From the NCBI GenBank assembly GCA_018340805.1, contig JACMZG010001914.1:4775369-4839368 (forward strand): a stretch of DNA of 64,000 nucleotides. The letters are read 5' to 3'. The stretch comes from Microvelia longipes. Its lineage: Eukaryota > Arthropoda > Insecta > Hemiptera > Veliidae. Position numbers and translations under genes: made by a program. Positions within the stretch are counted from its first letter, which is position 1. Each line of letters starts with the position of its first letter. The notes under the pieces are model-generated. The model did no database searches. It was not told where the DNA came from and saw only the letters and a program-made list of their open reading frames with translations. Below, in pieces: positions 38,932 through 61,236 of the stretch.

Positions 38932-39179
38932 TTAATTTATCACTTCGAGGTCTTCAAAATCAGTTTTATTGTTAGAAAGTTTGTTTGATGGTCTGGTATG
39001 GATTCTCAAAGTAGCTAAGAATTCCCTGTTAGATTCATCCCGATATTTTATTTCCTCAGATACTGTTCCAAGGACTCCTTTAGGACAACAACAGTCAACT
39101 TTGGTTCGAAACTCACTACAGAGAAGAGTCTTATCTGCTGGACATCTTGTTTTTATTGGACAGATGTAGGCAAATTTAG
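38932..39179 (-). CDS. Alternative last exon 3d, divergent, with long C-terminal tail
   Basis: 248 nt (3n+2), acceptor tttacag, open throughout. It reads AKFAYICPIKTRCPADKTLL, then CSEFRTKVDCCCPKG, then about 45 hydrophilic residues to TAA. The spacing C-x5-C-x7-C-x8-CCC is exactly kept although most other residues differ from 3b and 3c, so selection on the Cys frame is likely. An AATAAA lies about 70 nt downstream (38858-38863). Confidence 0.78.
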
Positions 39180-42100
39180 CTGTAAAATAATAAATGACAT
39201 CAGAAGGAATATTTGTTTATAAGCCTGATAAAGTCTTTGGATCTTATTAACCAAAAACTGATAGGTGATATCTATATTAATGTATATAGGTGTAGTAGTC
39301 TAAGAGCCGGACCTGAAAAAATGAGACTCATTTTGTACTACTTCAAACCAAATATTCTGAAATTATACCTTAAAGTATGAAGAAAAAACATAGTCTGCTT
39401 ATCCAGAGTGGAGCCCTTCATATGATTGCGCGTGCTCAAAATTTTAGAAAATCGCACGAATTTCAGTTTTCTAGAAATAAGTGGTTCCCTGTGGGTCGAG
39501 TGCAAAACATGGAGAGAACACACTTCTTAAAGGTGATAAAATGTTCTCTAAAACGAGTGTTTAATCATCAAAATTGGATAACTGCAACCAAAGTTATAGC
39601 TTTTTCAAAAACACTAAAAAAATGGTTAATTTATGCAATCGGCGAATTTCTTTGGAAAAATAGTGGCTGTTTGTGCATTTTTAGGCCATTTAACAAATGT
39701 CATAACTTTAGTTGTATTTATCTGATTTTGACAAAAACTCTCATCTTATAAGCTTTAAAAATGAAATACAAAATTTACTTGTTTAATCTTTGCTACTAAT
39801 ACTATACACAACCTCAAATAAAAACACATTTGTTAATAAATAAGTTTTATTTACAATTCCACCATAAAGCCAAAATATGTTACGTTTACTATGAAAGCAG
39901 TTCTTGTTAATTAGCAACAGCAATTCATCATATAGTTATAATCGCTACACAGCGGTGCTCCGTATAGTGGGCATTGGATGTTTGGTGGACATCTGATAGG
40001 TACTCGATCTAAAAAAAAATATCATTATTTTGCTGGATAGAATTTAAGCCCATGTTGGACCAACGTTCTTATCGTGATATGTTACAAGTACCAGTAGTAA
40101 CTAGTCCCGAGGTCCTGGGGTGGTTTATAGGATTTACACGACAATAGATAAAAGAGTAAGAAAACCACCGGATGGTGTTTTACTCCGGGGACAATACGCT
40201 GTCTGATACTTTATATTTAATAATTTTGAAAAAAGTTATTCAAACGGAACCATTTCATGGTGGTAAAACACTTCAACGGTACAGAGTGGACATCATTGAG
40301 GTATTATTATAGTGTATCCAACGGTTATGATCAGCTGACAGCGCGAGAAAATAGTGTTGAGAAACCAATGAGTTGGGCCTGATATGAAATTGTGGGGGTG
40401 GTTTAACATCCAGGACTAACCTCATTGGATCTCTCGCATGTCAACTGATTTTTAAACTTGCGTTATACTCATAGTTTTAGTCTCTTTGGTTATACTATAC
40501 TAGAGGGGCTTTTTTAGTTGAGTTTTGAAACATCGAAAAAGTAACCTGACCATCTTTGACTATTAATCTTTTTGCGTTTCCTATTAAGTATTACTCTCTG
40601 AATACAACGCTACTTTTAGTTTTGTCCAGCCTTGTTAACTTGTTGAGAAAAGCCAATATTAAAATTTGACTACACACGACGAGAACGAAATTTGGGTAAA
40701 TACTAAATTTCACTCTTTTTAAAAATTAAAAGTATATTCTTACGTAGTTTTCGACGCTGAATCCAAATATACCGAAGCATGTACAGTTAATAAGAAAAGC
40801 GTAATTAAACATTTTTCTACGTATTTCACGCACGCATTTTTGACAGCAATTGCTCTATCTTAGTTTCGACAGAACTAACCTTTTGAGATGCGGTTTTTTT
40901 ACGTTGCCCAATAAGGTTTACCCTCTGAATACAACGCTACTTTTAGTTTTGTCAAGCCATGTTTACTTGTAATGAAAAGTCAATCGTAAAATTTGGGTAA
41001 ATACTAAATTTAATTTAGTAAAAACGTAATTTAACATTTTTTAACCTTTTTCGAGCACGCATTTTTGATAAAAATTGCACTCTTGTTTTCGACAAGGTAA
41101 TCAAAATTACAGTTACTTATAAAGTAAAACGTTTGAAACATAGAGATATATACTAGAGAGGACATAGCCTATCTTAATACCTTGAGAGCTGAAACATTTT
41201 TTGTGGGGTCTCAGGGCTCTGGTGTAAACCCATTGAAACCTCTCAAGAGGAGTTGAGGTTTTAACTAACAAATTGTTTTGGCTTCCCGCCGATTGTTGGT
41301 AGTGATTGTAATTTAAACATTCTACTTATAATTTACTGTTTATATTGATGATAATGTAATCGAATGTGTCAGTTATTTTTTCAATGTTTTCAAAATTCAA
41401 CAATATCTATTAATATATCTCTATGGTTTGAATTACAAATCAAAATAAAAACAATGTCCGGGAAGCCGAAAACAATTTATTTATTTTCATTATAACCTTA
41501 ACATACTCTCAGAGGATACAATGAGGTTACACAGAGCCCCAAAGAGATGTTTCAGTCCTCTCAATGTATTGAGATAGGCTATGCCCCCTCTATGGTAAAC
41601 ACTCTATGTACCGTTAAATCATAAGTAAACGTTAGTAGACACGATAAGCCCAAATAATACATCGTAATGATAATAATGCACGCTTAGAGCTTGTGGCTCA
41701 TCACTGCGGGAACGTTATCAGATCCCCGTTTTTAAAAAGGTACAAGTCTTTTATACCACATGTAAAGTAATATATAAACCAAGTAGGGAAACTCCTACAC
41801 TAACTTGTGTAAAAAAAATCAGACACGCGTGATCAGCTAATAAGTGGCTCAAAAATAAAAATGATCTTAATTTAGAATTACTGAGCGTGAGCCCTTTAAG
41901 ATTTACGTTTTTTACTTAATTTTATTGGCAACCCTGATAACATTGTGAGTTTTTTTTATCGTGTTTTCGACAAGATTCTAGGGATTCTATGGAAGGCTTT
42001 TTTAAAATGTGAATATTAGGTATTTAACCCAGGTTACGNAACGTTTCAGATCCCGTTTTTAAAAAGGTACAAGTCTTTTACCACATGTAAAGTAATATAT

Positions 42101-44014
42101 AAACCAGTAGGAAACTCCTACACTAACTTGTGTAAAAAAAATCAGACACGCGTGATCAGCTAATAAGTGGCTCAAAAATAAATGATCTTAATTTAGAATT
42201 ACTGAGCGTGAGCCCTTTAAGATTTACGTTTTTACTTAATTTTATTGGCAACCTGATAACATTGTGAGTTTTTTTATCGTGTTTTCGACAAGATTTCTAG
42301 GGATTCTATGGGAAGGCTTTTTTAAAATGTGATATTTAGGTATTTAACCCAGGTTACGTTTGTTATTTTTTGCATTTTCAAAGAAATCATGCGGGTTTAA
42401 TTATTTACGGGTTGATTTTGAGAAAATGTATCCATTTATTTTCACAAATTCTACGGTTTTTATTAATATTATTTTTAGAGTATAAATATAAATATTTTTT
42501 TTTAAATTGAATACATATTTTTAAATTATAAATTATTCTCAAATTTTATAGTTTCATTGTTTATTTTGTATATTTTGTATAATGGCATAAAGTTATTATT
42601 TTGATTTGATTTGATTTAAATTTTTCGCTTTCCACAACGGTAACTGGTGCGCTAGCGATTTTGAGAACTATGACATGTTCTCCTAAGCTGATGATTCGAA
42701 ACTTTTTTGCTTTGTAATCGTTATTCTCTTGCTTTCGCCATTTCCTTTATAGGTTTAGGTCACTGTACAGCTAAAATGTCCTTTGACCATCTCTTCTACA
42801 GGGTCGTGCGATTTAGAGTATCTCATATCACTCCCACTCATGTTGGGCATGAGTTTGAAATAGAAGGCGTTTAAGTAAGTCGGAGCGAGAAAAATTCGCC
42901 AAACAATAGCCAAAAATTTGGATGTTATTTTAGATCTAGTAAGGGAATCACTGGTTCTTAAAAACGTTTATCAAATCCATTTACTTAAAAAATTGTAAAA
43001 TATTTAAAATGTATAACTTAAATAAAAAATAAAGTTTTGCATAAGGAGGATCATATCTGAGTGTTCATGCCTGGGTTCAGCAGATGCAGAATTTTGACAA
43101 TAATGCTGTGCGATTTTATTAACCGAAAGGTCATGTCCTGGAAGACCACATATTTTTAGAACAAGATGATTTTGTCTTAATCATATTTAAGGATGCTCAA
43201 CTAGATATTCTATAGAAATATGGCAGTGATGCGTGTGCCTATATGAAAACATGGTATTAACATTACAATTTTGAATACAGTGCTTTGTTTTACGACATGA
43301 CCAAGGATCCCTGCTGCTTTCATGATTTTTTAAAAGAGGCGAAACCTATGACATTATTCTTCAAATAATAAAGAATCATCTCGACGAACCGCTAAGAGCT
43401 AAAACCCTTTATGTCTAACATGGCCAAGCAATTCTATTTAGCCTGGTCGCAGTAATGCCTTCTGCTGATAGATTTAGGCATTTTGCCCTTGGCCATGTTG
43501 ATAGAGCCTAGAGATAGAATTTGAGTAAAATAAAAACGCAAAAAGAAATAAGTATAAATCTTTAAAAGTTTTAGCAACGCAAAAAAAATAAGCAAATTTT
43601 AAAACAATGAGCCAAAAGTTTCTTAAAAATTGTACAACGATGCGACTGCAATTTTGGATTAATCAAAAATAAAACATTCATTAAAATTTAGAAATAAGTA
43701 TTTTAAATTCAAAATAAAATAAGAAATAATTTATATTCTAATATGATATATAATATAAATAATTTTAATTTATAATATGACCATAATTTTGTTTTCTATT
43801 ACTTTTTAGCGAATTTTCATATAAAATGACGCTTATTGAGGTTGTTCGGATGACGGAAGTTGAGGGTGGGAGTGAGTGGAATCGGTTCCTATTGGCTTCT
43901 GATAACAAATATATGTCCGAAAAAATTTAGTATATAATATATATATATATATATATTAATATATTATAATATTATATATATTATATATATATAAATATAT
44001 ATATTATATATATA

Positions 44015-44069
<55 letters not shown>

Positions 44070-47000
44070 GAGTTTCTACCTTTCGTATGGCGACGATAAC
44101 TCTCGAAGGCGTTCTCAAATTGAAACGAAACTTTGCAAATCGCGAGATGTTGAGGAGGTTACGAGGCCTATTGTTTTAAAAAACATTATGACGATCAACC
44201 AAGTTATGACGTCATGAAAAAAATTTTTTTTTGAAACTTAAAAATGGCTTAAAACAAGGTATCTAGTATTAGGTAGACGGCTAGCTGAATCGATTAAGAC
44301 CAATTTCAGCTGAATCGAACATCCAAATGGCGCAATTGTAACATATATAATAATCTTGTATATATGTATACGTCTAGGTAAAGACTCGTCGATATCTGTT
44401 GGGTTCAGTAGTGTAGAGGGTGGATACTAGTATAAAAGAGAGACCTCTACTCTTGCTCCATCATGGTAATGCCTACTGTCCCAAGAGAGAACGGCAAAAA
44501 ATCGGCTTCCACTGAACCAGCCGACTAAGCAGACCCGTAAAGAGGAAGAAATCGGAAGTAGTTTTATTATGGTCGAAGTTATCAAAACGAATGCGACAGT
44601 TTCCTCAATCGGACATCCTAAGTGACGCAAACGGTATTTTTATTTTAAATATAATCAATGAATATTATTTTTTCAACCTTGATTTTTACTCAATAAACAA
44701 TTTGTTTACAAAAAAAATTTGACATTTTTCTTTAAATTTTATAAACAATCATAAAATGTAAGTAAAGTGTTGAAGTTTTTTTTAATATGGTCGAAGTCAT
44801 TTCTAAAAACATTGCGACCGGTTTCAGCTCAATCAGACATCTTTAGTGACGGAACAAAAATCATGAATAATATATTTGTTTATAATGTTTCTTAATTTTA
44901 ATATTATGCATACTATTAATAATAGAGCATTAATAAATCTCAATTAGTAAAATCAAGTTTGTGAGAAAGCCACTCAGGCCCGCGAAGCGGGCCGTGTGGA
45001 GCTGTGAAAATTGCTAGATTACATGGCAAAATGCCATGTAACAAGAAAATAATAAACAACACTAATACAAAACAACAACATGTGGCCGCAAAGCGGCACA
45101 AGGGAGGCCCTGCGGACCGACGCCGCGGAGCGGACGAGGCGCGAAAGCGCCGAGGCCGCGTACGGCTACGGGCCGAAGGCCGTATTTTTTGCAATATGGC
45201 GGATAACTGATTTTTTTAGAGTCCATCCAGTTTATACTAAAATGATGTCAAATTGTTTTATTTTTATTTGTAATTTCGTATAAATAAATATATTATTTAT
45301 TTATATTTGACACTATAAAGTAAATATTTAATAACTTTTTAATAAAAATCGTAGAACTAGAAAAAATTAAAATGAAATGAAAACATTTCCTCAAAAACAA
45401 CCCGCAAATAGATCAAACCCGCGTGGTTTATTTGAAAATGCCAAAGAATTACACTAAACTGTGAAATCCTAAATATCACAATTTTAAAATATCCTTCCCA
45501 TAGAACCCCTAGAATCTTGTGTGTTTTCGTACTTTAATACCACGTGATAATTTAATAATTTTGTATTAAATTCGGTGAAATAATTGTTGTAATAATTTAG
45601 TTAAAGAAAAAGAGAAACTATAGTAAAGATAAATCACATATTTTTATTACGATTTCGAAGAACATACAGACGACAGTGTAATTGCACTAACAGTGTATGT
45701 TGCACTAATGCCTTAAATATAACTTAAAGTTACGATTGCTTTTATTATATTAAGAAAAATGTAGGCTAAAGTTGTTAAATTGCTAATTACAATCAATATT
45801 TGAAGTGAACTAAATAATTATACTCGCAAAATGTACTAAATTAAGTTTGTGCACACGAAAAAAAGTTTAATTAGCCACTCGTTTCATTAAGTTTGTTTAA
45901 ATACTTAAAGAATAAAAACTTAACAAACTTATTATTTATAGATCCGCACTGGATGTGACAAAACGTATTTCTTATATAAATTATTAACATTTTATACCAA
46001 AATGTACAAAGAAATGCAATAAAACAAAAATTTTGAGTACCGTGTATAGTTTGTTTACATTTACAAGGATAGGAAATTAGAAAAATTTGGCCCATAGGGA
46101 AATTTGAGTCAACTTCTTGGTGGACAAAATAAAGGGAGAGTAGAGGTATTACTTTTATAAAGGGGAATAGTAAGCATTTTCGAAAGTCCAGGAACATGTT
46201 TTTCTCTTTATTTTTATATATTTAATGTTAGAGTATCTGATAATGTTCCACTTCAAATCACTGAAATGTTCAAGAGATTTAATTTTAAAATGCTAGAAAG
46301 TTAGAGGAAAAAAAGCATACAAATTAAAAAGCACCATTCTATTGGTTGTAGATGATACACATGACATGCAGGTGTAGATGACTACACATGACATGCAGGG
46401 TTGTAGGATGACTCACATGAATGCAGGTAGGATGACACATGACATCATGGTGAGATGACTACCATAATGCAGGTGTAGTGATACATCATGACAGCAGGTG
46501 TAGGATGACTACAATGACATCAGGTTATGGATAACTAACATGATCAGGTGTAGGATGACACATGACATGCAGTTTAGGATGACTACAAATGATATGCAGG
46601 TTTCATTCTTTCGATACTTTACATTATTTAGTACGTTCACACACACTTCTAAATCTGCCTGTGCGTTGTCAGGTACTCTGAAACTGGGCATAGACAAAAT
46701 TTAGGACCCTCATTGTAGATTCATTATAATACTATACTGTTTCTGCCTTGTAGTTTAAAGTGTGTGGAGGTTTGGTTTAACAGTGAGAGCACGTGTTGTT
46801 CCTAGTTTTCACTAGACTATAAGAGTCAGTGAGATATGTATGATTGCTTGAAAAAGCATGAGAGGAACCATAGAATCCACGGCTCTTCTGCTAGATTAGA
46901 TGAAATATCTACACTGGATATTAAAGGAGTAGAACACTATCTTAGGGAGCTGGCAAAGAGGACCCAACCACGTGGACATACCTGGTGTTACTCACTCCCC

Positions 47001-50000
47001 CATATTACTACTATCTCTATTATTCGATAAGATTCGGAAAAAAGGAAATACAGATTTCTTAAAACATACTGACTTTATAATTAGGGTATAAGCCTAGCCC
47101 TAATTTAACTTTGTAGACCTGAAATAATGACACCATTTGGTAAATACTGATAGTTAAAAAATGTTCTAGACTTCCTCATTCCACTCTGAAATTGATGTTT
47201 TATCAAGGATTATTTTTATATAAACATATAGAGTAAATACAACACTAACAAATTAATTACATAAAAGTGCGAAGTCATCTGTCTTTCGGCAAACATTAAA
47301 AGTGTTAGCAACAGCAGTCCATCATGAAGTTATAATCATGGCATAAGCCATGTCCGTACAGGGGGCAGTTGATATCGGGCGGACAAATGACCTGTACACG
47401 ATCTGTAAAGCATAACAACATAAAGCATAAAGCTAAAACCATACCATCAATGCTAAGAAAAAGCTATATTAAAGACATGTTTACATTCTACACTACTGTG
47501 ACAAGCATGCATTAAGTGAGTTTATTAAACATGCAAATCATCATATTGCAACATTATTAAAATTTATCATAGTGCACTATAATATTGCACTAAGGATCAA
47601 CATCATATTGCACTAAAGATCAACATTATATTGCCTAAGGATAACATTATAGGATCAACATCATATGCCAAGGACACCTTAGTGCACTAAGGATCAACAT
47701 ATATTGCACTATCATTTTCACTATTAATTGCTCTTAAGTGATAACATTATATTGCACTACAATGTTGCACTAAGGATCAACATTATATTGCACTAAGGAT
47801 CAACATCATATTGCACTAAGGATCAACATCATATTGCACTAAGGATCAACATATATTGGCACTAAGGATTCAACATTATATTGCTCTAAGATCAACATCA
47901 TTATTGCAGTACAATATTGCAGTACATATTGACTAAGGATCAACATTATAGTTGCACTACAATGTTGCACTAAGGACAACTATTAATTACTACAATGTTG
48001 CACAAGGATCACATTATATTGCACTACATGTGTCTAAAGATCAACATTATATTGACACATGTTCATAAGGATCCAACATTTATTAGCATCTACAATGTTT
48101 GCCATCTAAGATCAACATTATATTGCACTACAATGTTGCATAAGGACACATTATATTGCCTCAAATGTTGCCACTAAGGATCAACCATGAAATTCTAACA
48201 TAAATAAAATTCCATCATATTGCACCATGGGGATCAACATCATATAGTAACATAGATAAAATTTAATCATGTTGCACCATAAGTATTAAACTCATATTGT
48301 AACATAGATACAACGTGACATAGACATATGTCAACATAGATCGTATTGCACTTGAAAGTTGCACTTTTAATAAAAACATCATCATGCACAATCATGCGAA
48401 CCATATGGCAATCAGTTACGTATTAATGTTGCTCTAGATTCTGAAAAATGGAGACCCAAAAGATGATTTGAGTAAAAATGGTTGGTTTGGATTGCTACAG
48501 CAGCATCTCATCATATGATCATAATCACTACATAAACCTGGTCCATATTTAGTGGATAGTAAATGAATCAATGGGCAGTTTATATCATGAGACAAACTAT
48601 TGCAGACGATCTGTAATAATTATAACAACCACATAATAATTTTAATGAAAAAATTCAACATAAAAAGCACAATTATAAAATCTACTGTTATTATTAGACA
48701 TATATCATTTGTTACTACTGCGTTGTACAAAAGATTAATAGTTGACAGTTGACACCGTATTGAGTGTCACACGATGTGTTGCACTCATAATGCGTGAGAG
48801 AACAGAATGATACAACAGTTCACAGATGTAGCACTGCACTTTGCTTGTAACATTCCTAGATTTCATAAACACTGTTATATTGTAACAACTATTCATGTTT
48901 TGCGTTAGTTCAGAGGCACTTTTGCTAACTATAGTAACTATTCATGTTTTGCATTAGTTCAGAGGCACTTATGCTATCTATAGCATAAGTGAAGTTGTTA
49001 GGTTGGCAATACTGAAACGCCTTATGTAAATTGAAAGGTAATCATCAGCTCGTTTTACTTGCCGGCGTGCCAGCAGTGTGAACAAGTTGTATACATCTTT
49101 CTGCTATTTTATGAGATATTATAATATTCACAGGTGTTTGTGGAAGTAAATCATGATAGATTTTAATAATTGTAGCAGTTTACCATCTAGGACTAAACAT
49201 ATAAAATTAATAAATAAATAAAAGATATGGGTATAGTCAAGAACTACATCCTATATACACCGTTGCCAACAGTACATCATAAGTTGAATAGCTTTAAATT
49301 TTATGCTCTCTGCTGCCACGCCGCCAAGGAGAAGAAGCTGATGATTGCCTTGCAATTTGAATAATAAGGCCCTTTAGTATTGCCAACCTAACTTTACCTT
49401 AAACCGCCGATGACAGTCTCCAACCAAACCGAACACGACTTGGTGGGAAAGAATAATTAATTTTACTATAGACCTGGCGGGGAGTCATTTTTACCACGCA
49501 AATAGTTTTTAGTAAGATTTTAAAAATTTTTATACGACACTAAACGGTTAGACGACTGTTCAATATTTAAGGAAAGAAAAGAGTTACGTCTTCTAGAAAA
49601 AAAAAACTGTAAAAAATGATATTTTAACATGGCTACAAGTATAATAAAATTATAACATTTAATATCCAACAATGAACCTTAAGTGAATTTTAATTAATTT
49701 TGTACTAATTAACATACGAGAAAGGTAAATATGTTGTCGTATTACAGCAAATAGGAATCCATAATTTTATTCATTATATTGTTATTAATTTATTGGATTT
49801 TCGACGTAGTTTTTTTATTAAATTGACCGTATTAGCCTTGACACAATTATTTTAAATATTAAAGTTAAATTACTTATTCCATGTTGGGTTGACTGTTATC
49901 TAGGTTGGAGCAAACAGAGAGGTCTCGTGTAGTTGCAAACAGGTTGAAAATGTTATCAATTGGAACAAACAGATTACGAGTTCTCGGGTAGTAGCAACAG

Positions 50001-51783
50001 GTTGAAATGTTCAAGATTGGAACAAACAGATGAAGGCAAACAGGTTGATGTTAATCAAGATTGGAACAACAGATTACGATTCTCGGGTAGTAGCAAACAG
50101 GTTGAAATGTTATCAAGATTGGAACAAACAGATTACGAGTTCTCGGGTAGTAGCAAACAGGTTGAAATGTTATCAAGATTGGAACAAACAGATTACGTAA
50201 TCTCGGGTAGTAGCAAACAGGTTGAAATTATCAAGATTGGAACAAACAGATTACGTGATCTCGGTAGTAGCAAACAGGTTGAAATGTTATCAAGATTGGA
50301 ACAAACAGATTACGAGTTCTCGGGTAGTAGCAAACAGGTTGAAATGTTATCAAGATTAGAACAAAGATTACGAACAAACAAAATGTAATCAGGATTCTCT
50401 GATGAGGAACAAACAGATACGTGATCAGCAAACAGGTTGAAATGTTATCAATTGGAACAAACAGATTACGATTCTCGGGTAGTAGCAAACAGGTTGAAAT
50501 GTTATCAAGATCAAACATTACGGAGTCTTCAGAAAACAGTACGTGTCTCGGGTAGCAAAAGGTGAATTTATCAAGATTGGAACAACAGATACGAGTTCGG
50601 TAGTACAAACAGGTTGAAATGTATCAAGATTGGAACAAACAGATTACGTGAGTTACAGGTTGAAATGTTATCAAGATTCAAACAGATTAGTAGCAAACAG
50701 GTTGAAAATGTTATCAAGATTAGAAAACAGATTACGAGTCTCGGGTAGTAGCAAACAGGTTGAAATGTAATCAAGATTGGAACAAACAGATTACGAGTTC
50801 TCGGGTAGTAGCAAACAGGTTGAAATGTTATCAAGATTGGAACAGATTACGAGTTCTCGGGTTGTAGCAAACAGGTTGAAATGATCTTTACGTGTCGTCA
50901 TCAATGACACGTATAGAATATAATTGTTCATGACGTCATTAACCGTCATCAACGACACGTAAAAATGCCAAAAAATTTGATAAAACAGGTCAATAATCAG
51001 TGTAATTTGATATTTGGCACGCATGTAGCCCTACATTAGATCAACAGATGTCCTATGTTTATTTCATTATTAGCATTAGTTAAATTTGTTTGCTTTCACA
51101 AGAAAGAATTTTATTGAGTTAAAATTTGGCACGGTTGTATACTCGTGCTAATTTGTTTACCATTTTTTATACCAAATTACAGGGATATCTCTGTAGAAAA
51201 TAAATATGTATATTTAGATATAAGGAGTAGACTCGTGTCGCGCACAAGCCTTGAGCTATGCACACAAATGGTCAATAATATTATTATTTATTTATAAATT
51301 TAATTTAACCTTTGTAAACAGGTATTTATATATAAATAAACGATTATTTATTTATTTATTTATTTATTTAGGTTTCGTTTTAATACGGTTTCTACATATA
51401 TGGTTTGGTTGGATCTCTAATGTTAAGCAGTATGAAGCAAGGATAGTATCTGGATGTGTTACCGCTGCTATTTTTTTTTAAATTAAGTTACATTAACATT
51501 ATTTGTTAATATAGTTTTAGTAGTTAGTAATCTTGACATTTTACCAAAAGATGATCCAAAGGGGTTGAAATATATTTACATAGTTCCTATTTATTTCAAC
51601 ATTGTAAAATTATTCTCGTAATAAGTAATAAAACAAAGGATTTTAGTGCCTGCGGACAGGCGAAGCTAGTCCGAAGATGTTTTAAAAGTTAAATTAGGTA
51701 ATTCTCATATTTCGAGGACGAGAGAAGCGAATCCAATGTGGCGAGGATAAATATATATATATATATTATATATTATATATATA

Positions 51784-51834
<51 letters not shown>

Positions 51835-51839
51835 CATAT

Positions 51840-51874
<35 letters not shown>

Positions 51875-51896
51875 ATATATATATATATATGTGTGT

Positions 51897-51931
<35 letters not shown>

Positions 51932-53561
51932 CTATATAGTGAGATTCCAAGGTACCACGTACCCGATTTTTAAATGGGATGGTCTTGATATGGAATGACT
52001 CTTAATACTAAACCTCGATGTAATGGATATTAGGGATGAGTAAGCACTCTACGAAAAGTCTATAAGATTAATATAATATTTAGCCATATGCACTATGAAT
52101 AAGTCAATAACCAAATGGTTGTAGTTGACAGTACTTACCGGTAGGATGGGCACATCCACAACAATATCCATGGATAACTGCCGGATCTAACCTGCATGCA
52201 TGTGGAGGGCAGTTATCCGGATGACCGCAGTTTGGATGAGGTCTTGGAGGTTTGAATATATTGGTCAGCCATCCTGGAAAAGGGTCGCGATTAGAAAGCA
52301 CTACTGCTTTGGCACTGGTGATATTTTATCATTTATGTCAAGAAATACATTGGTTAGGCAACATGACCGTAATTATATTTTGTAATTTTAAGAAGAGTGT
52401 CTCATAGAACCACCAGAGGCGTTACTACAGCAAGCGATCATAGGAATGTGCGGGGGCTGCTAAGCGAACAAAAGAGCTGCAGCCTCTTATTTCTTTGGGG
52501 AATTCGCTAAATTTGTTGGTTCAGTTGAATGCATAGTATATTTTTACTTAGGTTACCACTTACGTGCAAAGCATGCATGTCAACAACGATATTACCTCAT
52601 CCTTACAAATAAAAAGATAAGTTTTTAATGCCAACAACCTCGAAAATGTTAACCTTAAATGTATTAGGTCAGAAATCGTGCTAAAGATTACATTCATAAA
52701 GAGATCATTTCAGGCTGTAATTACTAAACTGATTTACTCTGTAATATAATTGTAGACGTCTCTTGATGTTTGGGTGCCATGGTTCGACTGACAGTTATTG
52801 ACAGCTAGGGCCATGGCTAGGTTATATATCCAGTGGATTATCTCGTTACCATTAAAGTACAAATTGATTCCAGTATATGGTTTACCTAGAAAGCCATTTG
52901 AGCAATTAGACAAATGTAATGAAACGTCTGTAAATCACAGCTGAGTCAATATATAGCGGGGCCAAACACGTTTACCATCTAAACATACGATGTGATTTTA
53001 ATTTGTTTAAAATTAAAATTAACTTTTCCTTATTACGTCGGATTCGCTACGCTCATCCTCTCTGCTTCGGACTCGCTTCGCTTGTCCTCAGAAATACAGT
53101 TTGCCATTCGTCTTCAGATAGTGAAAGCATCCGTATCATTTTCAGCGGTCACCTATACGAATTCAAGCCAAATTTTTATATTATTAGTAAAATATCAACG
53201 TTTTCCTTACCAGGCCTAGGAGTATCACCACTGGGTGATTTCTTCTATCAAGACTGCCAAGTCACTTTAACCAGTATGAGCGTCAAATATATTTATTGTA
53301 GTAATAAAAATATATTGATAAATAATAAATAATAAATAATGATGATAAATAATAATAAAAAATAAAAATAAATAAGGTATTTAAGGTAAAACCTGAAATA
53401 CCTTGGTTTAACCCGGCTTTCAGGTTCACCGATGAAAATCGAGTCTAAGAACATAATAATAAAAATAATAATAATAATAAAATAAAAATAAATAATAAAA
53501 AATAAAATAAAAATATATTGATTATGATTATGTAAATTGGACTAAAAGTCCGTATTGTTTA

Positions 53562-53597
<36 letters not shown>

Positions 53598-55892
53598 AAA
53601 TAAATAAATAAATAAATAAATAATAAATAAATAATGAATAAAGTTAAAACAAATTTATACAGCACTGACTCAATGCTCCTTAATTTTTATAATCCAACAA
53701 AAATCATGGATATACTTGCCGTATTGAAACAAAACGTAGTCAACTTATTTATTAGGTACTAATATAAATTCGTACTAAATTTCAACTCGAATGAATCATG
53801 TTCTAATTTTTTACTTTTTTAAAAAACGTACACAAGTCATTCAATAAAAATTGAACTAATGTTGATAATGCAAAGAAACTTGGCACATATGTTAGTCTTA
53901 AACATAGTCACATGCGTGTCAAATCTCATCACATCCGATCGCATAATTTTTCTGCGTTTTATGATTTTTCGATATGAACTTTTGCTGAGTCAGTATTGCG
54001 GGTTAATGACGTCATAAAAAATTTTTTTTTTTCCGAATAGCACAACCACAGCGGTAGACTGATATTTGTACAAAATTTCAACTTTCTAGCATAAATACAC
54101 TGGGCGCTACGATGATAACAGACACCTGTACAAACACACACACACTTACAGACAACTTTGCGAAAACCACTCAGGAGGCCTTAAAAACGCATGAAACGGA
54201 TAATTCCGGTTTCATTTGGTTTCGGATTTTTTTGCAAACACAATACTTTTCCTATATACCCAAGGAAGAGGAAAAGTAAAAAGAAATAAACCATTTTTTA
54301 CATTTATAATTAATAAGCAATAGATCATTAATTAATAATTTGATTTGATATTTCAATCACTGGAAGTATTAATAATTTTTCGCAACAAAACATTTTATTT
54401 TGTTACATTTGCAGCCTTGCTTAAGACCACCAATGAAACAAAAAGGTTTTCGTATTATCAGTAGTGCTCCTTCTGTATATAGTATTATCAGATGTGCTCC
54501 TCCTATATATAGTATTATTTTAAGTTGAAAACGATATCAGATAAAGAATTTGAAGCTACAGACGGTGATATTTGCTGGGCTCTGACCAAAGAAGCTAATA
54601 CTAAGTGGGAGGATACAACAGCTCTTATCATAAGCCCTGGGTAGCTTGGTAGCATAACTGCAAGATGTTAGAAATTTATATTTTATATTATTATTTTGTA
54701 TTATTTTATATTATTATTTTGTATTATTTTATATTATTTTATTTTTTTATTATTTTTATTATTTATATATTATTTGTATTATTTTATTTATTATTTTGTA
54801 TTATTTATATTATTTTATTTTTATTGTATATTTTATATTATTTGTATTATTTTATATTTTATTTTGTATTATTTTATATTATTATTTTGTATTATTTTTA
54901 TTATTATTTATTATTATTTTATTATTTATATTTATTTTGTATATTTATTATTATTATTTTGTATTATTTTATATTATTAATTTTGTTATAATTTTATATT
55001 ATATATTATAAATTTATTCTTTAATATATTCAGTATTTTACAACTATTTTGTCTTAAACTAAGTAAAACAAATTTAAAACAAGTTGTAATTATTATTCTT
55101 TAATTATCAGTGTTGTATAAAGTGTATTAATGTGACTTCACTGAAAAATGCTCGCTGTTTGAATAAAAAGTGGAGTAAAAATATGGAGTAAAATAAGAGT
55201 AAAAAAGAGTAAGAATAAGGTGTAAAATAAGAGTAATAGTATTGAGTAAAAAAGGGTAAAATTATGGAGTAAAAAAATTGTAAAAATATGGAGTTAAAAT
55301 AGTAAAAATATGGAGTAAAATAAAAAATAGTAGTAAAAAAAATAAAAATATGGAAAAAATAAGATTAAAAATATACAGTAAAAAAATTTAAAAATATGGA
55401 GTAAAATAAGAGTAAAAATATGTAGTAAAAAAATAGTAAAAATATGGAGTAAAATAAGAGTAAAATATGTAGTAAAAAAATTGTAAAAATATGGAGTAAA
55501 AAGTGATTTTCTATGCATAATATAGAAAATCGAATGAGACTAGGCTCGCAAGCTTGATTTGCTGAGCACGTCTACGAAATTTTATGTCTCCACGACAAAC
55601 AGTAACTCAGCAATTTAGGGAATACAAAAAAGGTATGGATATCTCAACTTTAAACATTACTACACAAACCAAAAGCGCCAAAGCACATGTTTTAAGACTT
55701 ACCTAATCCTAAAAATCTTCCTTCCCTTGATTCTGAATTCGAACCTGATGACGAAGATTCATCAATTGAAACAGACTGGTTGATAATATCATCATCAAAG
55801 CTATCTACATTTAAATTAGCTCGGTTTTCCAAAGTTGTTTCTAAACAACCACCAAGCCCTATTACAAACAGTAGCATCAGAACTGATTTCAT
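38932..55892 (-). CDS. Secreted cysteine-rich protein gene with at least four alternative last exons
   Basis: Visible exons, 5' to 3' on the minus strand: exon 1 at 55892-55703 (signal peptide and acidic pro-region), exon 2 at 52273-52139 (first six-Cys module), then candidate last exons 3a (48610-48434), 3b (47402-47305), 3c (40008-39911) and 3d (39179-38932). All junctions are phase 1: exon 1 ends with one base of a codon, exon 2 is 135 nt, and each intact last exon is 3n+2 nt. Each intact product would be a signal peptide, a Ser/Asp-rich linker and two compact six-Cys modules, so a secreted disulfide-rich protein of roughly 140 to 190 residues. No second copy of exon 1 or 2 lies between the last exons, so alternative splicing explains the layout better than complete gene copies. 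I do not recognise the family. A defence peptide, cuticle or saliva role is possible, but the sequence does not decide this. Confidence 0.75.
39300..39780 (+). repeat. Dispersed repeat, copy 2
   Basis: Counterpart of 24900-25400. It contains a chance 124-codon open frame. It lies between last exons 3c and 3d. Confidence 0.5.
39846..39851 (-). terminator. AATAAA after last exon 3c
   Basis: Canonical polyadenylation hexamer on the minus strand, about 60 nt past the exon 3c stop. Confidence 0.45.
39911..40008 (-). CDS. Alternative last exon 3c (six-Cys module)
   Basis: 98 nt, the same length and phase as 3b. It reads DRVPIRCPPNIQCPLYGAPL, then CSDYNYMMNCCC and TAA. The cysteine spacing is identical (5, 7, 8). 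An AATAAA lies about 60 nt downstream on the minus strand (39846-39851), as expected for a true last exon. Confidence 0.82.
40494..40563 (-). mobile_element. hAT-type MITE end fragment
   Basis: Matches the inverted right end of the family (tactagaggggc, then gaaacatcgaaa, then cctgaccatctt). Confidence 0.5.
40565..41095. repeat. Tandem duplication of ~330 bp, diverged
   Basis: Block tctgaatacaacgctacttt at about 40603 recurs at about 40924, followed in both by gttttgtc, agcc, ttacttg and a taaatactaaattt motif. Confidence 0.6.
41139..41425 (+). mobile_element. hAT-type MITE, copy 3 (decayed)
   Basis: Same termini as the copies at 9401 and 34553. The flanking octamers are GTTTGAAA and GTTTGAAT (7 of 8 match). 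It is shorter, with internal deletions. Confidence 0.75.
41437..41594 (-). mobile_element. hAT-type MITE fragment, inverted
   Basis: Inverted left half of the same MITE family, ending in tatgccccctct. It lies directly after copy 3, forming an inverted pair with it. Confidence 0.6.
41711..42358. repeat. Direct duplication across a single N (assembly artefact)
   Basis: 41711-42038 and 42040-42358 are near-identical, differing mainly by small indels, with the only ambiguous base of the window (42039) between them. Confidence 0.85.
42780..43400 (+). pseudogene. Decayed MULE transposase
   Basis: Frame-broken similarity on the plus strand: HVGHEFEIEGV, then TIAKNLDVILDLVRESLVLK followed by IHLLKKL, then EQDDFVLIIFKDAQLDIL and YGSDACAYMKTW, HYNFEYSALFYDMTKD. 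These resemble the H-GH, IA--L-----ILD--R-S, FVL----AQ and catalytic-core blocks of arthropod MULE transposases. Stops and frameshifts are present. The match is from memory of the family pattern, and the flanking inverted repeats and 9-bp duplication support it independently. Confidence 0.6.
43925..44055. repeat. AT microsatellite inside the MULE
   Basis: About 130 nt of alternating TA with interruptions. Confidence 0.9.
44977..45190. other. GC-rich hairpin cluster inside the MULE
   Basis: Short perfect stems with A/G-rich loops: GGCCCGC-GAA-GCGGGCC (44977-44993), TTACATGGCA-AAA-TGCCATGTAA (45019-45041), GCCGC-AAA-GCGGC (45085-45097), GGCGC-GAAA-GCGCC (45138-45151) and GGCC-GAA-GGCC near 45171. 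GC content is far above that of the flanks. Confidence 0.75.
45530..46325. other. Interval between MULE and exon 3b, first part
   Basis: AT-rich, with short open frames that lack motifs. Probably unspliced intron or inter-exon DNA of the Cys-rich gene. Confidence 0.4.
46330..46600. repeat. ~30-bp minisatellite
   Basis: Units of tgtaggatgactacacatga followed by catgcagg, about nine copies with many deletions. Confidence 0.8.
46680..47035 (+). repeat. Dispersed repeat, second copy
   Basis: Partner of 25730-26080. It holds a short open frame (MYDCLKKHERNHRIHG start) that could be a transposon remnant; I cannot assign it. Confidence 0.55.
47305..47402 (-). CDS. Alternative last exon 3b (six-Cys module)
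   Basis: 98 nt, acceptor tttacag. With the G from exon 2 it reads DRVQVICPPDINCPLYGHGL, then CHDYNFMMDCCC and TAA. Spacing C-x5-C-x7-C-x8-CCC. The stop follows the last Cys directly. No canonical AATAAA is seen just downstream. Confidence 0.8.
47560..48310. repeat. ~23/40-bp satellite between last exons 3a and 3b
   Basis: Units of ttgcactaaggatcaacatc plus att, alternating with ttgcactacaatg; about 25 irregular copies. Confidence 0.85.
48434..48610 (-). pseudogene. Alternative last exon 3a, frame-broken or pseudo-exon
   Basis: Starts at acceptor tacag and shares its first bases (atcgt) with exon 3b. Relative to 3b it lacks 2 nt before the second Cys and carries about 24 extra nt after the CP. 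Further on it reads YGPGLCSDYDHMMRCCC in one frame, keeping the final C-x8-CCC spacing, then a tail of about 20 residues to a TAG. Its length (177 nt) is 2 nt short of the required phase, matching the gap. It may be a decayed exon or suffer from assembly deletions. Confidence 0.55.
48611..49899. other. Interval between exons 2 and 3a, near part
   Basis: Has a direct repeat of attcatgttttgc with gttagttcagaggcactt near 48890-48970. Otherwise unique AT-rich DNA with no further six-Cys exon found. Confidence 0.45.
49900..50880. repeat. ~60-bp satellite in the Cys-rich gene
   Basis: Units of caggttgaaatgttatcaag, attggaacaaacagattacg and agttctcgggtagtagcaaa; about sixteen copies. It lies in the interval between exon 2 and exon 3a. 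Long open frames on both strands here come only from the repeat. Confidence 0.9.
50885..51290 (+). repeat. Dispersed repeat family, copy in Cys-rich gene
   Basis: Shares catgacgtcattaacc, tttcattattagcattagtt and gcacaagccttgagct with 22400-22870. Confidence 0.5.
51745..51935. repeat. AT microsatellite
   Basis: About 190 nt of alternating TA, about 200 nt downstream of exon 2 of the Cys-rich gene. Confidence 0.92.
52139..52273 (-). CDS. Cys-rich gene exon 2: first six-Cys module
   Basis: Acceptor ttttccag, donor gtaagt, exactly 45 codons, phase 1 at both ends. It reads GWLTNIFKPPRPHPNCGHPD and continues to CCGCAHPTG. The cysteine spacing is C-x5-C-x4-C-x10-CC-x-C, a looser version of the pattern in the last exons, so exons 2 and 3 look like an old module duplication. 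The Pro-rich lead (KPPRPHP) is a likely linker. Confidence 0.8.
53010..54290 (-). repeat. Dispersed repeat family, inverted copy
   Basis: Contains gcttcgcttgtcctcagaaa, aaaaatcatggatatacttg, gcgctacgatgataacagac and aggaggccttaaaaacg; split by the AAATA tract at 53310-53640. It lies in intron 1 of the Cys-rich gene. Confidence 0.5.
53310..53640. repeat. AAT/AAATA-rich low complexity
   Basis: (AATAAATA)n and (AAT)n stretches around a short unique block at 53375-53450. Confidence 0.85.
54660..55020. repeat. TTATT-rich minisatellite
   Basis: Repeats like ttattttgtattattttata. Overlapping open frames on this stretch are low-complexity artefacts. Confidence 0.88.
55185..55500. repeat. ~22-bp minisatellite in the first intron of the Cys-rich gene
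   Basis: Units of aaaaatatggagtaaaataa and gagta, about thirteen copies. Confidence 0.85.
55703..55892 (-). CDS. Cys-rich gene exon 1: signal peptide and acidic linker
   Basis: The chosen ATG at 55892 begins MKSVLMLLFVIGLGG, a Lys followed by a hydrophobic core and small residues, a good signal peptide. An ATG at 55916 adds eight residues and weakens the signal. The rest is acidic and Ser-rich (SFDDD, SSSSGS) and contains REGR, a possible processing site, just before the module region. It ends after GGATTAG with consensus donor gtaagt, phase 1. Confidence 0.75.
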
Positions 55893-57333: not shown

Positions 57334-59178
57334 TTAATACTTTTCAATGAATAATTGCTTTACGGATTTGGTGAATATATTAATGGTGTTGGCGTTTTTT
57401 ATATTTTGAGGCAACTTATTAAAAATGCCTGCTGCTACATAAAGCCAGTGCCTCTGACCCAATGCAGTATGTTTTCGTGGTATTTTAAATAAATTAAATT
57501 GAGCTGATCTTGTGTTTAGACCATGCTCTATTAAGGTTAAATTGTGTTTTCCAACATAGATTCTTTGTAAACCAATAAGGTGGTACATATCAGACATGTA
57601 TAAAATTTTAATTTTTTAAACAATGGAGCAGATTCTTCGCGGTTTGGCTGTTTTAATATAATTCTGATAAATAGTTTTTGCAATCTATAAAGCGGGAGTA
57701 AGTGGGTTTCAGCTGCTGATCCGTATGCGGTAATGCCATACCTTAAAGCCGAGTCAACAAGGGCAAAGTACAACATTCTAAGCTTCTCAATACTTAAAAA
57801 CCCTTTTACATTATGAAATATATAGATATATTGTCTTAGCCGCTTAATTAGGACACCAATATGTTGTTGCCAGGACAGATTTCGATCCACTATTATTCCA
57901 AGATATTTAACATTTTCAACATCCTCCAGAGTAGGACAAGTGCAGTTCTGGGGGAACCTGGTTTTGCATGCTTGACTATGTAGACGAATATTAAAAATTG
58001 GTTTAGAATTAACCGTATTACGAATACAAAAATACATTAATTTGGTTTTTTTAACGTTTAAAGAAAGTTTGTTTATTTTTAACCATTTATTAATTGAATT
58101 AATGTTACATTCAAGAGCGTTATATACTTCAAACCAATACTTAGCTGAGCAAATCAAAACCAAATCATCACAAAAACCTATCAGACGGCACCTGGACACA
58201 ACAGAGAACACATTGTTTATGTAAACAAGGAATAATAGTGGACCCAAAACCGTGCCTTGCGGGATAGAATATTCCGAGCTTGTAGGCGCAGCAAGAATAT
58301 TATTGATCTTTACAGATTGACTTCTGCTTTCAAGGTAACTGGAAAACCATCTGAGCACTGTTCCTCTTATACCAATATCATAAAGTTTTTAATTAACTTC
58401 CTATGGGAAACAGTGTCAAACGCCTTAGCCAGATCCAAGAAGACAGCTGCCACTTTCAAGCCGACGTCTAAAGAATTCGTAATGGAAGATATAGTCTCAG
58501 ATATGGCATCCTCCGTACTCAAACCAGCCTGAAAACCAAACTGATTTTTATTTATAATATTCTTAGATACCAAAAGTCAACTAACTGTTTTTTAACGATT
58601 TTTTCAATGACCTTGGCAACATTTGAAAGTAAACTTATTGGTCTGTAATTGCCAGGTTGTGCAGAAATCACCTCCCTTAAAAAGGGGGTAATTAGTGCAT
58701 TTTTGAGAATACTTGGGAAAATGCCCTGAGTCAAACTAGATTTAGCGATGTACAGAAGGGTTTAACTAAATAAGTTTCATTATTTTTTATCACAATAGCC
58801 TGGATATTGTCTAAACCTGGTCCCGAACCACCTTTTATTTGCTTTATAGAATCAAATACGTCTTTTTCTGTTATTTCTTTGTATGTATCCCATAGATTAT
58901 CTTTTACATCAGTAACTATTTCATCATAATTTATATCTTCTATTTGGGTCAGCCATTTTTTTACCCAAGCTTCCAAAATATTCCCCTAAGGCATTTGCCC
59001 CTTCTTGTGGGTGAATATTTAAATCAATATTTTTCCCATTGGATATGATGTTTTTAATGAGTTTTGTTTTATTATTTGATTTCCCAATTCCTTCATTTAT
59101 TTTCCATATTTTACGGGAATCGCCCTCGCATGCCTTTATTTTACTAGAATAATAATCATTTTTGACAGTTTTAATCAT
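57334..59178 (-). pseudogene. LINE ORF2, reverse transcriptase domain, frame-broken
   Basis: RT blocks occur in correct order across several frames: SIKQIKGGSGPGLDNI, QPGNYRPISLLSNVAKVIEK, NQFGFQAGLSTEDAI, FLDLAKAFDTVSH, IPQGTVLGPLLFLVYINN, GFCDDLVLIC, LSLNVKKTKLMYF, then the C-terminal GIFNKLPQNIK tail. The catalytic pair is intact, with FCDD in place of the usual YADD. Frame changes occur near 58.95, 58.73, 58.56, 58.36 and 57.57 kb, so it cannot make a full protein as read. Confidence 0.88.
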
Positions 59179-59261
59179 TTTTGCAATTTCTTATTATAGG
59201 TTTTAATGTAATTTGAAGGTCTAGATTAAAAGGTTCTTTTAAACTTTTTTTTTGATAATTT

Positions 59262-60302
59262 TTATCTTTTTCTTATGCAAGTAATAAGACCAAGAGTTAT
59301 CCAAGGCTTTAATTTTTTGTATTTATGATTTGGTGGTGGCAAAATAGTTGTTGCTTCCTGAATGTAATTATTTAATTTATCAATAAAGTTTGTAGTGCAG
59401 ATATTTAAATTACTTTCACTGAGGACATCTTCCCAATTTTCGTTACTAAGTAAGTTAGATAGTTTTAAATTATCTAGTTTTGATAGAGGATTAGCAGAAA
59501 CAGGCTGTTCGTTATTTTTTTTCTTAGATAAATTTACGTTTATAGTTATAGAGTAATGATCTGTAATATGCGTTTTTATTGTAGTTGCAATAGTTTTATT
59601 GATAAGACATTTTTTTATAAAAATGTGATCTATAGTGGAAGCTGACTTATTAGTAATTCTAGTGGGCGTTGTAATAGCTGGTATATAACCACGATCAGCT
59701 AGACAAGTCAAATAATCATTTGTGTCAGCACTTTGAGTGTCATCATCATTATTAAAGTTTTTATATATATCTTTGTTAATGTCACCAATTATGATATTGT
59801 TTTTAGCCTTATTGATATTACGGAGGAGATCATTTAATTCATTTACAAAGGTAGATATATTTCCTGATGGAGATCTATACAAAGCTGTTACAGTAAATTT
59901 AGTAAACTTAAAAACTAAACAGTTGCAATCACAAGTAAAACTATGCTCAATAGTTTCTTGCAAATCCTCTATTAAACTACTCTTAATAAATACAACAATA
60001 CCACTATTCTGGTTGTAGTTTAATTTGGAATAATACGTAGTATAACCATTTATAGAATAAATTTCACCTGGCTTATTAATTAACCAAGCTTCAGACAATA
60101 TGACCATATCAAATTTTATGACTATGCTTTGTAATACAACAGATAATTGATCTATGTTTTTATCTATACTTCTTATATTTGTGTGAAAAATATTTATAGA
60201 TCCTGAATAGTTTTTGGCTAAAATATTGAAGTCATCCAAATTGTCTGAAACCTGGTTAGTAACTATAAATTCATCTGATAAAACTTGTTCGGTCAAATCC
60301 AT
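59262..60302 (-). pseudogene. LINE ORF2, endonuclease domain
   Basis: 346 open codons from an ATG. AP-type endonuclease motifs are in order: FHTNIRS near residue 40, LSEAWL near 74, ALYRSPSG near 141, GDINKDI near 172, TPTRIT then STIDHIF near 210-225, and THITDHYSI near 245. The Glu, Asp, Asn/Asp and His catalytic positions are present. The frame ends at 59262, where the reading shifts. Confidence 0.88.
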
Positions 60303-60605
60303 AGTAGAATACTATACATATTTAAGCTAATTAAAATAAAACAAAATACTAAGAAGTCTACCTGTGCTTGCCAATTAACATGAAATATGACACCGTAAAT
60401 ATTGAAATATATAATTTTAATCAATTTGTTATTACTTAAGTTTAAGAAATATTCTTTATTAACATTGAAAAGAATGAAAAATAAGCTTAAATTTAGGAAA
60501 GTTGTGAAAATAACTAAAACTCCTGGAAAAAAATTATAATTAAAACTGCTACTACTAAAAAAAAAATTTAAGTATAAAAAAGTAAAGATGTTAATGAAAA
60601 TATAA

Positions 60606-61236
60606 TTAATCTTGAACTTGAAACAGTTGATAAGTTTGTAGTCTCGGCTCGATATCTGAAGAGAGCGAAATAGAATTGTGAAGTAAGTGCCAAATACTTT
60701 GCTTATCGAGGCTTGCTGGCATTGCATTTGGTGCCGGAGGAAGCTGATTAATGTCTTTATAAGTTCGAAAAAATAAAACATTTTCTCCTTGCGCCTTTCT
60801 CACCATTATGGTACCATCTTTAGTCCATACATATGCGTAACCAGCTGCTCTAGCTCTCTCTTTTACACGGAAAAGTAGATTTTTTTTCATAGGGCTTAAA
60901 TGTTCGTTAATATAAATCTTTGAGTCTTGCAAATTGCTATTTAAATCTCTAGCATTCAAGTTTTTGTGTTTAAAACCTGCCAGCCATTCATTCTTTAGTT
61001 TTCGAGATGATAACTGGGCTACAATAGTAGGAGATTTGGTTTTGTCTTTTGCATTCACTCTGTGCGCAATTTGTATATCATTCTCTCCGACCACTATACC
61101 CGCTTTTCCCGCCAGGTTCACTATAATCTCTTTACAGTTTTCTCGAGTAGATATTGGCATACCGCGAACTTCAATATTAAAAATTCTGCTTCTTTGCTCT
61201 AATTCAATTATCCTCTCTTCTTGAGCAAGGATAATT
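60606..61236 (-). pseudogene. LINE ORF1 (RNA-binding protein), 5' truncated
   Basis: The frame begins with a coiled-coil end (EERIIELEQRSRIFNIEVRG), then GMPISTRENCKEIIV, IQIAHRV, a basic stretch, IYINEHLSPMKKNLL and YVWTKDGTIMVRK. These are the blocks of the ORF1 type common in arthropod CR1/Jockey-like LINEs. An ATG at 61160 exists, but the family start lies further upstream. Confidence 0.8.

Follow-up and report, generated by a model that had tools for sequence, protein, structure and literature searches.

Does this locus of Microvelia longipes hold a single gene that yields several secreted peptides by choosing among alternative last exons, or is only one of its apparent endings in use? 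The window (the whole stretch of DNA that was analysed, 64,000 nucleotides long) carries the following features, on which the argument rests:

55703..55892, minus strand: coding part of exon 1, with start codon, hydrophobic leader and pro-region; donor GTAAGT, phase 1.
52139..52273, minus strand: exon 2, module 1 (C-x5-C-x4-C-x10-CC-x-C), phase 1 at both ends.
48497..48610, minus strand: last exon 3a, a broken module 2; acceptor present, CCC end kept in another frame.
47305..47402, minus strand: last exon 3b, an intact module 2 of 32 residues terminating in CCC-stop.
39911..40008, minus strand: last exon 3c, an intact, canonical module 2.
38932..39179, minus strand: last exon 3d, a divergent module 2 followed by 50 further codons.
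42039..42039, no strand: single N joining overlapping contig ends, between 3b and 3c (overlap alignment).

An earlier note on this DNA had proposed four last-exon acceptors, the upstream donors and phase 1 junctions, and all of these boundaries were confirmed at base level. Exon 1 ends at 55703 as ...TTAG/GTAAGT, exon 2 is bounded by CCAG/GATGG and ACCG/GTAAGT (52273-52139), and AG precedes 48610, 47402, 40008 and 39179 (seven of the seven splice boundaries checked agreed). Since every exon junction is in phase 1, exon 2 can join any last exon in frame; exon 1, exon 2 and a last exon joined together give products of 140 aa with 3b, 140 aa with 3c and 190 aa with 3d. On a crude pyrimidine score, ranked among 3303 AGs of the same strand, the acceptors of 3b, 3c and 3d fall in the 86th, 86th and 93rd percentiles, and that of 3a is ordinary (63rd). 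The leader of exon 1 was judged by eye to be a signal peptide, and the pro-region closes with R-E-G-R-F-L-G-L.

The content of the exons agreed less evenly with what had been proposed. Each block had been said to carry the module and to end in a stop, and this was correct for 3b, 3c and 3d, which are open and carry it; the frame of 3a, however, meets a TAG directly after its fourth residue (the stop codon ends at 48597), and the half of 3a that bears the cysteines sits in a different frame, with other spacing. The exact pattern C-x5-C-x7-C-x8-CCC was recovered in 3b, 3c and 3d, the three copies described as intact, and not in 3a. Exon 2 does not share the module of the last exons, its C-x5-C-x4-C-x10-CC-x-C being spaced differently. 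The exact last-exon pattern occurs 3 times in the window and in none of 60 first-order Markov windows; a chance origin of the cysteine pattern was rejected on this result and on the neutral simulations given below. We also ran a profile made from 55 relatives, none taken from the window, on the six-frame pieces of the window. It returned 3c (E = 3.1e-14), 3b (1.7e-12), exon 2 (3.8e-12), 3a (3.6e-5) and 3d (8.5e-5), and the next piece after these five exons scored E 1.9.

The relatives place the gene in a wider family. A first database search with the gene gave 4 matches at E<=0.001, the best relatives coming from the leafhopper Homalodisca, and an alignment-based search gave 78 relatives at E<=10 (E below 0.001 for 77). 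These span what we take to be eight orders (Ephemeroptera, Orthoptera, Phasmatodea, Blattodea, Hemiptera, Neuroptera, Coleoptera and Lepidoptera), orders being assigned by species name and 13 of the 78 rows lacking one; no row among the 78 bears the name of a fly or wasp. Module 1, written as C-x(1-7)-C-x(3-4)-C-x10-CC-x-C, is found in 78/78 relatives, and exon 2 fits it. Module 2 has exactly C-x5-C-x7-C-x8-CCC in 61/78, of which 42 terminate at CCC. The other 17, inspected by eye, are mostly module-1-only pieces running into an apparent intron and cut or odd models, together with P0067 and P0064, the latter with a module 2 one residue shorter. The Leu before the third Cys and all the Cys of module 2 are invariant in 55 aligned members. 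Before module 1, where the window gene has REGR, 22 of 61 relatives have a strict RxxR and 50 of 61 a loose basic pair, both counts being without chance control. On its two modules the gene is assigned to an unnamed two-module, 12-cysteine family of secreted insect peptides. Ending 3c shares up to 24/32 residues with other insects and, on that comparison, is the canonical ending.

For the products of 3c and 3d Pfam returned 0 families at E<=1, and with no serpin domain found the serpin family was dropped as an assignment. For the 55 relatives Pfam gave three weak, scattered families, which we took as chance (the best in 3/55, E 0.0062). No PDB match was found by sequence, nor by fold with Foldseek. 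The view that no named family has this layout stood in so far as there is no convincing Pfam family, but the family itself is widespread, in eight insect orders. The AlphaFold model of P0001 has a mean pLDDT of 77.7, with 80-95 in ten-residue blocks of the cysteine part, and helices at 77-84 and at 109-122, of which the latter continues into CCC; 3d folded alone gave a poor model, which was set aside for its low confidence (pLDDT 54.9). We infer that the function is most likely that of a conserved extracellular ligand or inhibitor, because the family spans insect orders. The locus points to a family of uncharacterised secreted peptides, conserved from mayflies through to moths, for which Pfam gave no convincing counterpart and PDB none.

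If the last exons were the ends of separate tandem genes, each with private signal-peptide and module-1 exons, then further copies of those upstream exons should accompany them. Such an arrangement seems to occur within the family, since three consecutive Homalodisca models (J6590_027097, 027098 and 027099, that is P0061, P0002 and P0001) have similar leaders and module 1, two of them with the same module 2 and P0061 ending soon after module 1. In the window, the best other tblastn match to exon 1 has E 0.15 and an internal stop. A second exon 2 was found neither in the window nor among the best candidates of a search of the whole genome (664.6 Mb, 1470 contigs), where the exon-2 query at E<=10 gave at least 1 match, exon 2 itself, the sole one found. 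Because this search scores the best candidates only, its match counts are lower bounds. The 3c query gave at least 5 places (3c, E 1.1e-16; 3b, 1.5e-9; 3a, 0.18; a place on contig C505, 0.69; 3d, 5.4). As these searches saw exon 1 once in the window and exon 2 once in window and genome, the Homalodisca-like reading is disfavoured and we hold it to be very unlikely here. The single upstream exons proposed earlier were thus upheld, and what is found is the layout expected of alternative endings: upstream exons that occur once, several homologous and phase-compatible last exons, and a kept cysteine frame.

The C505 place, which outscores 3d in the 3c query, lies at G000:C505:18086216-18086269. 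It matches the end of module 2 only: cysteines one and two are missing, and a stop lies 18 codons ahead of the CCC end. It may be a chance match or a relic.

A more serious alternative to a gene with several endings is that 3c alone is used, and that 3a, 3b and 3d are decaying relics of exon duplication. The broken 3a and the canonical 3c, with its AATAAA at +60, agree with this, as does the finding that none of the 78 relatives, read by eye, showed two module-2 endings. To weigh it we turned to the divergence among the copies. The likeness between exons 3b and 3c begins at the AG and reaches the stop codon (73% in 101 columns), and no further similarity was found between their 800-nt flanks, so their duplication is old, which tells against 3b being a relic. 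The flanks of 3c and 3d partly cover the same bases, and past this overlap blastn was blank; those of 3a and 3b have in common the satellite tract between them and nothing else. Between 3b and 3c, 30 of 96 nt differ (8, 6 and 16 by codon position) and 22/32 residues are equal, so that 3b resembles 3c in its residues much more than 3a or 3d does. The comparison of dN/dS among the last exons, advised earlier, gave for this pair a dN of 0.23, with dS beyond the range of the method.

Neutral simulations, which assume independent substitutions and no indels, reached the 3b-3c residue identity in 0/20,000 runs in each direction, and at that divergence the six cysteines survive in about 1/1000. Between 3d and 3c, 48/96 nt differ and all six Cys are kept, a retention seen in 1/20,000 simulations one way and in 0 the other way. 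Overall identity of 3d to 3c is 10/32, modestly above neutral (P about 0.04), and this small excess also agrees with use of 3c alone. Stop-free frames by themselves are unremarkable (P 0.12-0.24). The simulations clearly point to past protein-level constraint on 3b, and to past constraint at least on the cysteines of 3d, which in neither case is proof of present use. Selection on the disulfide frame, as first proposed, agrees with the cysteines kept in 3b and 3d beyond neutral expectation; the spacing itself is a family constant (61/78) and hence not peculiar to this array. Taken together, frame, acceptor and six Cys are kept in 3b and 3d where neutral copies rarely would keep them, and we regard use of 3c alone as unlikely, though it is the alternative to which we give most weight.

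The state of the assembly bears on 3a. In 41720-42370 the two sides of the N can be aligned with each other in 330 columns (95% identity, 13 gap columns) and differ mostly by single-base gaps. They are unmerged contig ends, which suggests that the assembly has indel errors here. The order of 3b and 3c rests on the join at 42039, which the overlap supports. Minisatellite arrays lie between the last exons and exon 2 (46347-46602, 47582-48310 and 49919-50886), several with 10-23% indels. Given these signs of indels, at the N join and in the minisatellites (up to 23%), the frame break of 3a may be an assembly error. Elsewhere in the surroundings, LINE-like retroelement ORFs were noticed by eye on the minus strand at 57537-61160, with a poly-A end that lies a short way upstream of exon 1, and a tRNA scan found no tRNA genes.

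Poly(A) signals divide the endings in another way. AATAAA stands +60 nt from the 3c stop and +69 nt from the 3d stop, and neither AATAAA nor ATTAAA was found in the 400 nt downstream of 3b. The minus strand of the window holds 177 AATAAA, an expectation of 0.21 per 75 nt, so these hexamers lend weak support to 3c and 3d and are a mild mark against 3b. The same distribution would agree with an array that is partly live, with 3c and 3d in use and 3b intact-looking through recent loss; 3b, however, is fully open and has the residues closest to those of 3c, and we consider this reading highly improbable, the last among those weighed.

We then asked whether the endings themselves have counterparts in other insects. 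No species among the 78 relatives, read by eye, has one upstream part with two module-2 endings. The rows include three forms labelled isoform X2 (Aethina, Rhodnius and Leptinotarsa), their X1 partners lying outside the 78-row set. For 3d the closest tail is that of P0018 from the assassin bug Pristhesancus, which has the leader, module 1 and an ending 16/32 identical to 3d in local alignment, with CCCPxGV common to both. Its matrix score over 32 columns is 84 as against 83 for the mayfly Cloeon P0054, the best tails of P0018 itself are others (P0043 first), and the tree support for 3d with P0018 is 0.58. The tail tree resolves little, as it does not pair 3b with 3c, and it was abandoned for placing 3b and 3d, the sequences being too short. 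A search with the 3d and P0018 tails returned P0018 alone and adds nothing new, since the tail of P0018 was part of the query. With a one-point lead, that support and that tree, an old age of the 3d ending is only suggested. A bolder proposal builds on it: a conserved, hormone-like 12-Cys ligand of insects would have become switchable in this lineage, regulated choice of last exon swapping the whole of module 2 against a fixed module 1, the 3d ending being old and shared with true bugs. We offer this as speculation, and consider it unlikely.

The reading that we prefer, and think quite probable from the sequence evidence, is one gene with alternative last exons, making several versions of a peptide by choice of ending. 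For this gene we infer splicing, poly(A) use, secretion and pro-region cleavage. The gene would comprise an exon for the signal peptide and pro-region, a module-1 exon, and then a terminal-exon array produced by old duplications of a module-2 exon. Choosing among last exons that each bring a poly(A) site of their own would produce secreted peptides of two modules, in which module 1 is constant and module 2 variable. The endings on offer would be the canonical 3c, the variant 3b and the long-tailed 3d, and 3a would be a dead (or mis-assembled) copy. With one half of the peptide perhaps varied and the other fixed, the locus may be a natural experiment on which half binds what.

The nearest known systems are members of the unnamed 12-Cys family. 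Homalodisca P0001, Periplaneta P0003, Bombyx P0021, Tribolium madens P0010 and Cloeon P0054 have the same two modules, preceded by a leader and a putative basic site, and beside them the 3c and 3b forms are ordinary members; the 50-residue tail of 3d sets it apart. The window gene differs from these relatives, which were compared as proteins, in that none of those read has more than one module 2 or shows a second module-2 ending. Psyllid and lac-insect members (Diaphorina P0007, Cacopsylla P0025, Cyamophila P0059 and Kerria P0067) also multiply one module, but the other one. In Diaphorina P0007 module 1 is present twice and module 2 once, Kerria P0067 has a double module 1, and Cacopsylla P0025 and Cyamophila P0059 have a single module 1 of one or the other kind. 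There module 1 is multiplied, with both copies in one product (P0007, P0067), whereas the window multiplies module 2 as endings. This suggests that the module-1 exon of the family has likewise been shuffled, and with exon 2 of the window gene in phase 1 on either side, exons are easily duplicated in frame.

Outside the family, alternative last exons are counted among the event classes of spider and lacewing venom genes, and the portions of those transcript accounts available to us (PMC6700725, PMC12758981) describe no array of this kind. Riptortus midgut cysteine-rich proteins, in the part available of PMC3653873, were considered as a further comparison. No literature containing the letters HGYCCGC was found, and neither the locus nor the family is reported in the available text of the matches listed for alternative last or terminal exons and secreted cysteine peptides.

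The closest parallel in layout is PpSerpin-1 of Pteromalus which, like other insect serpin genes, has an array of duplicated alternative C-terminal exons; the available text of PMC10513286 gives 21 alternative exons of 44-50 residues and isoforms confirmed by RT-PCR. As far as that text goes, the two share constitutive upstream exons, duplicated C-terminal exons, and a constant part joined to a variable functional end. They differ in that the protein here is unrelated and an entire disulfide module would be the unit that is swapped. Given the serpin exon arrays, the proposed alternative-last-exon mechanism has a precedent and would here serve a different type of protein, and if the splicing is as proposed the serpin-type layout of alternative endings extends to small disulfide peptides.
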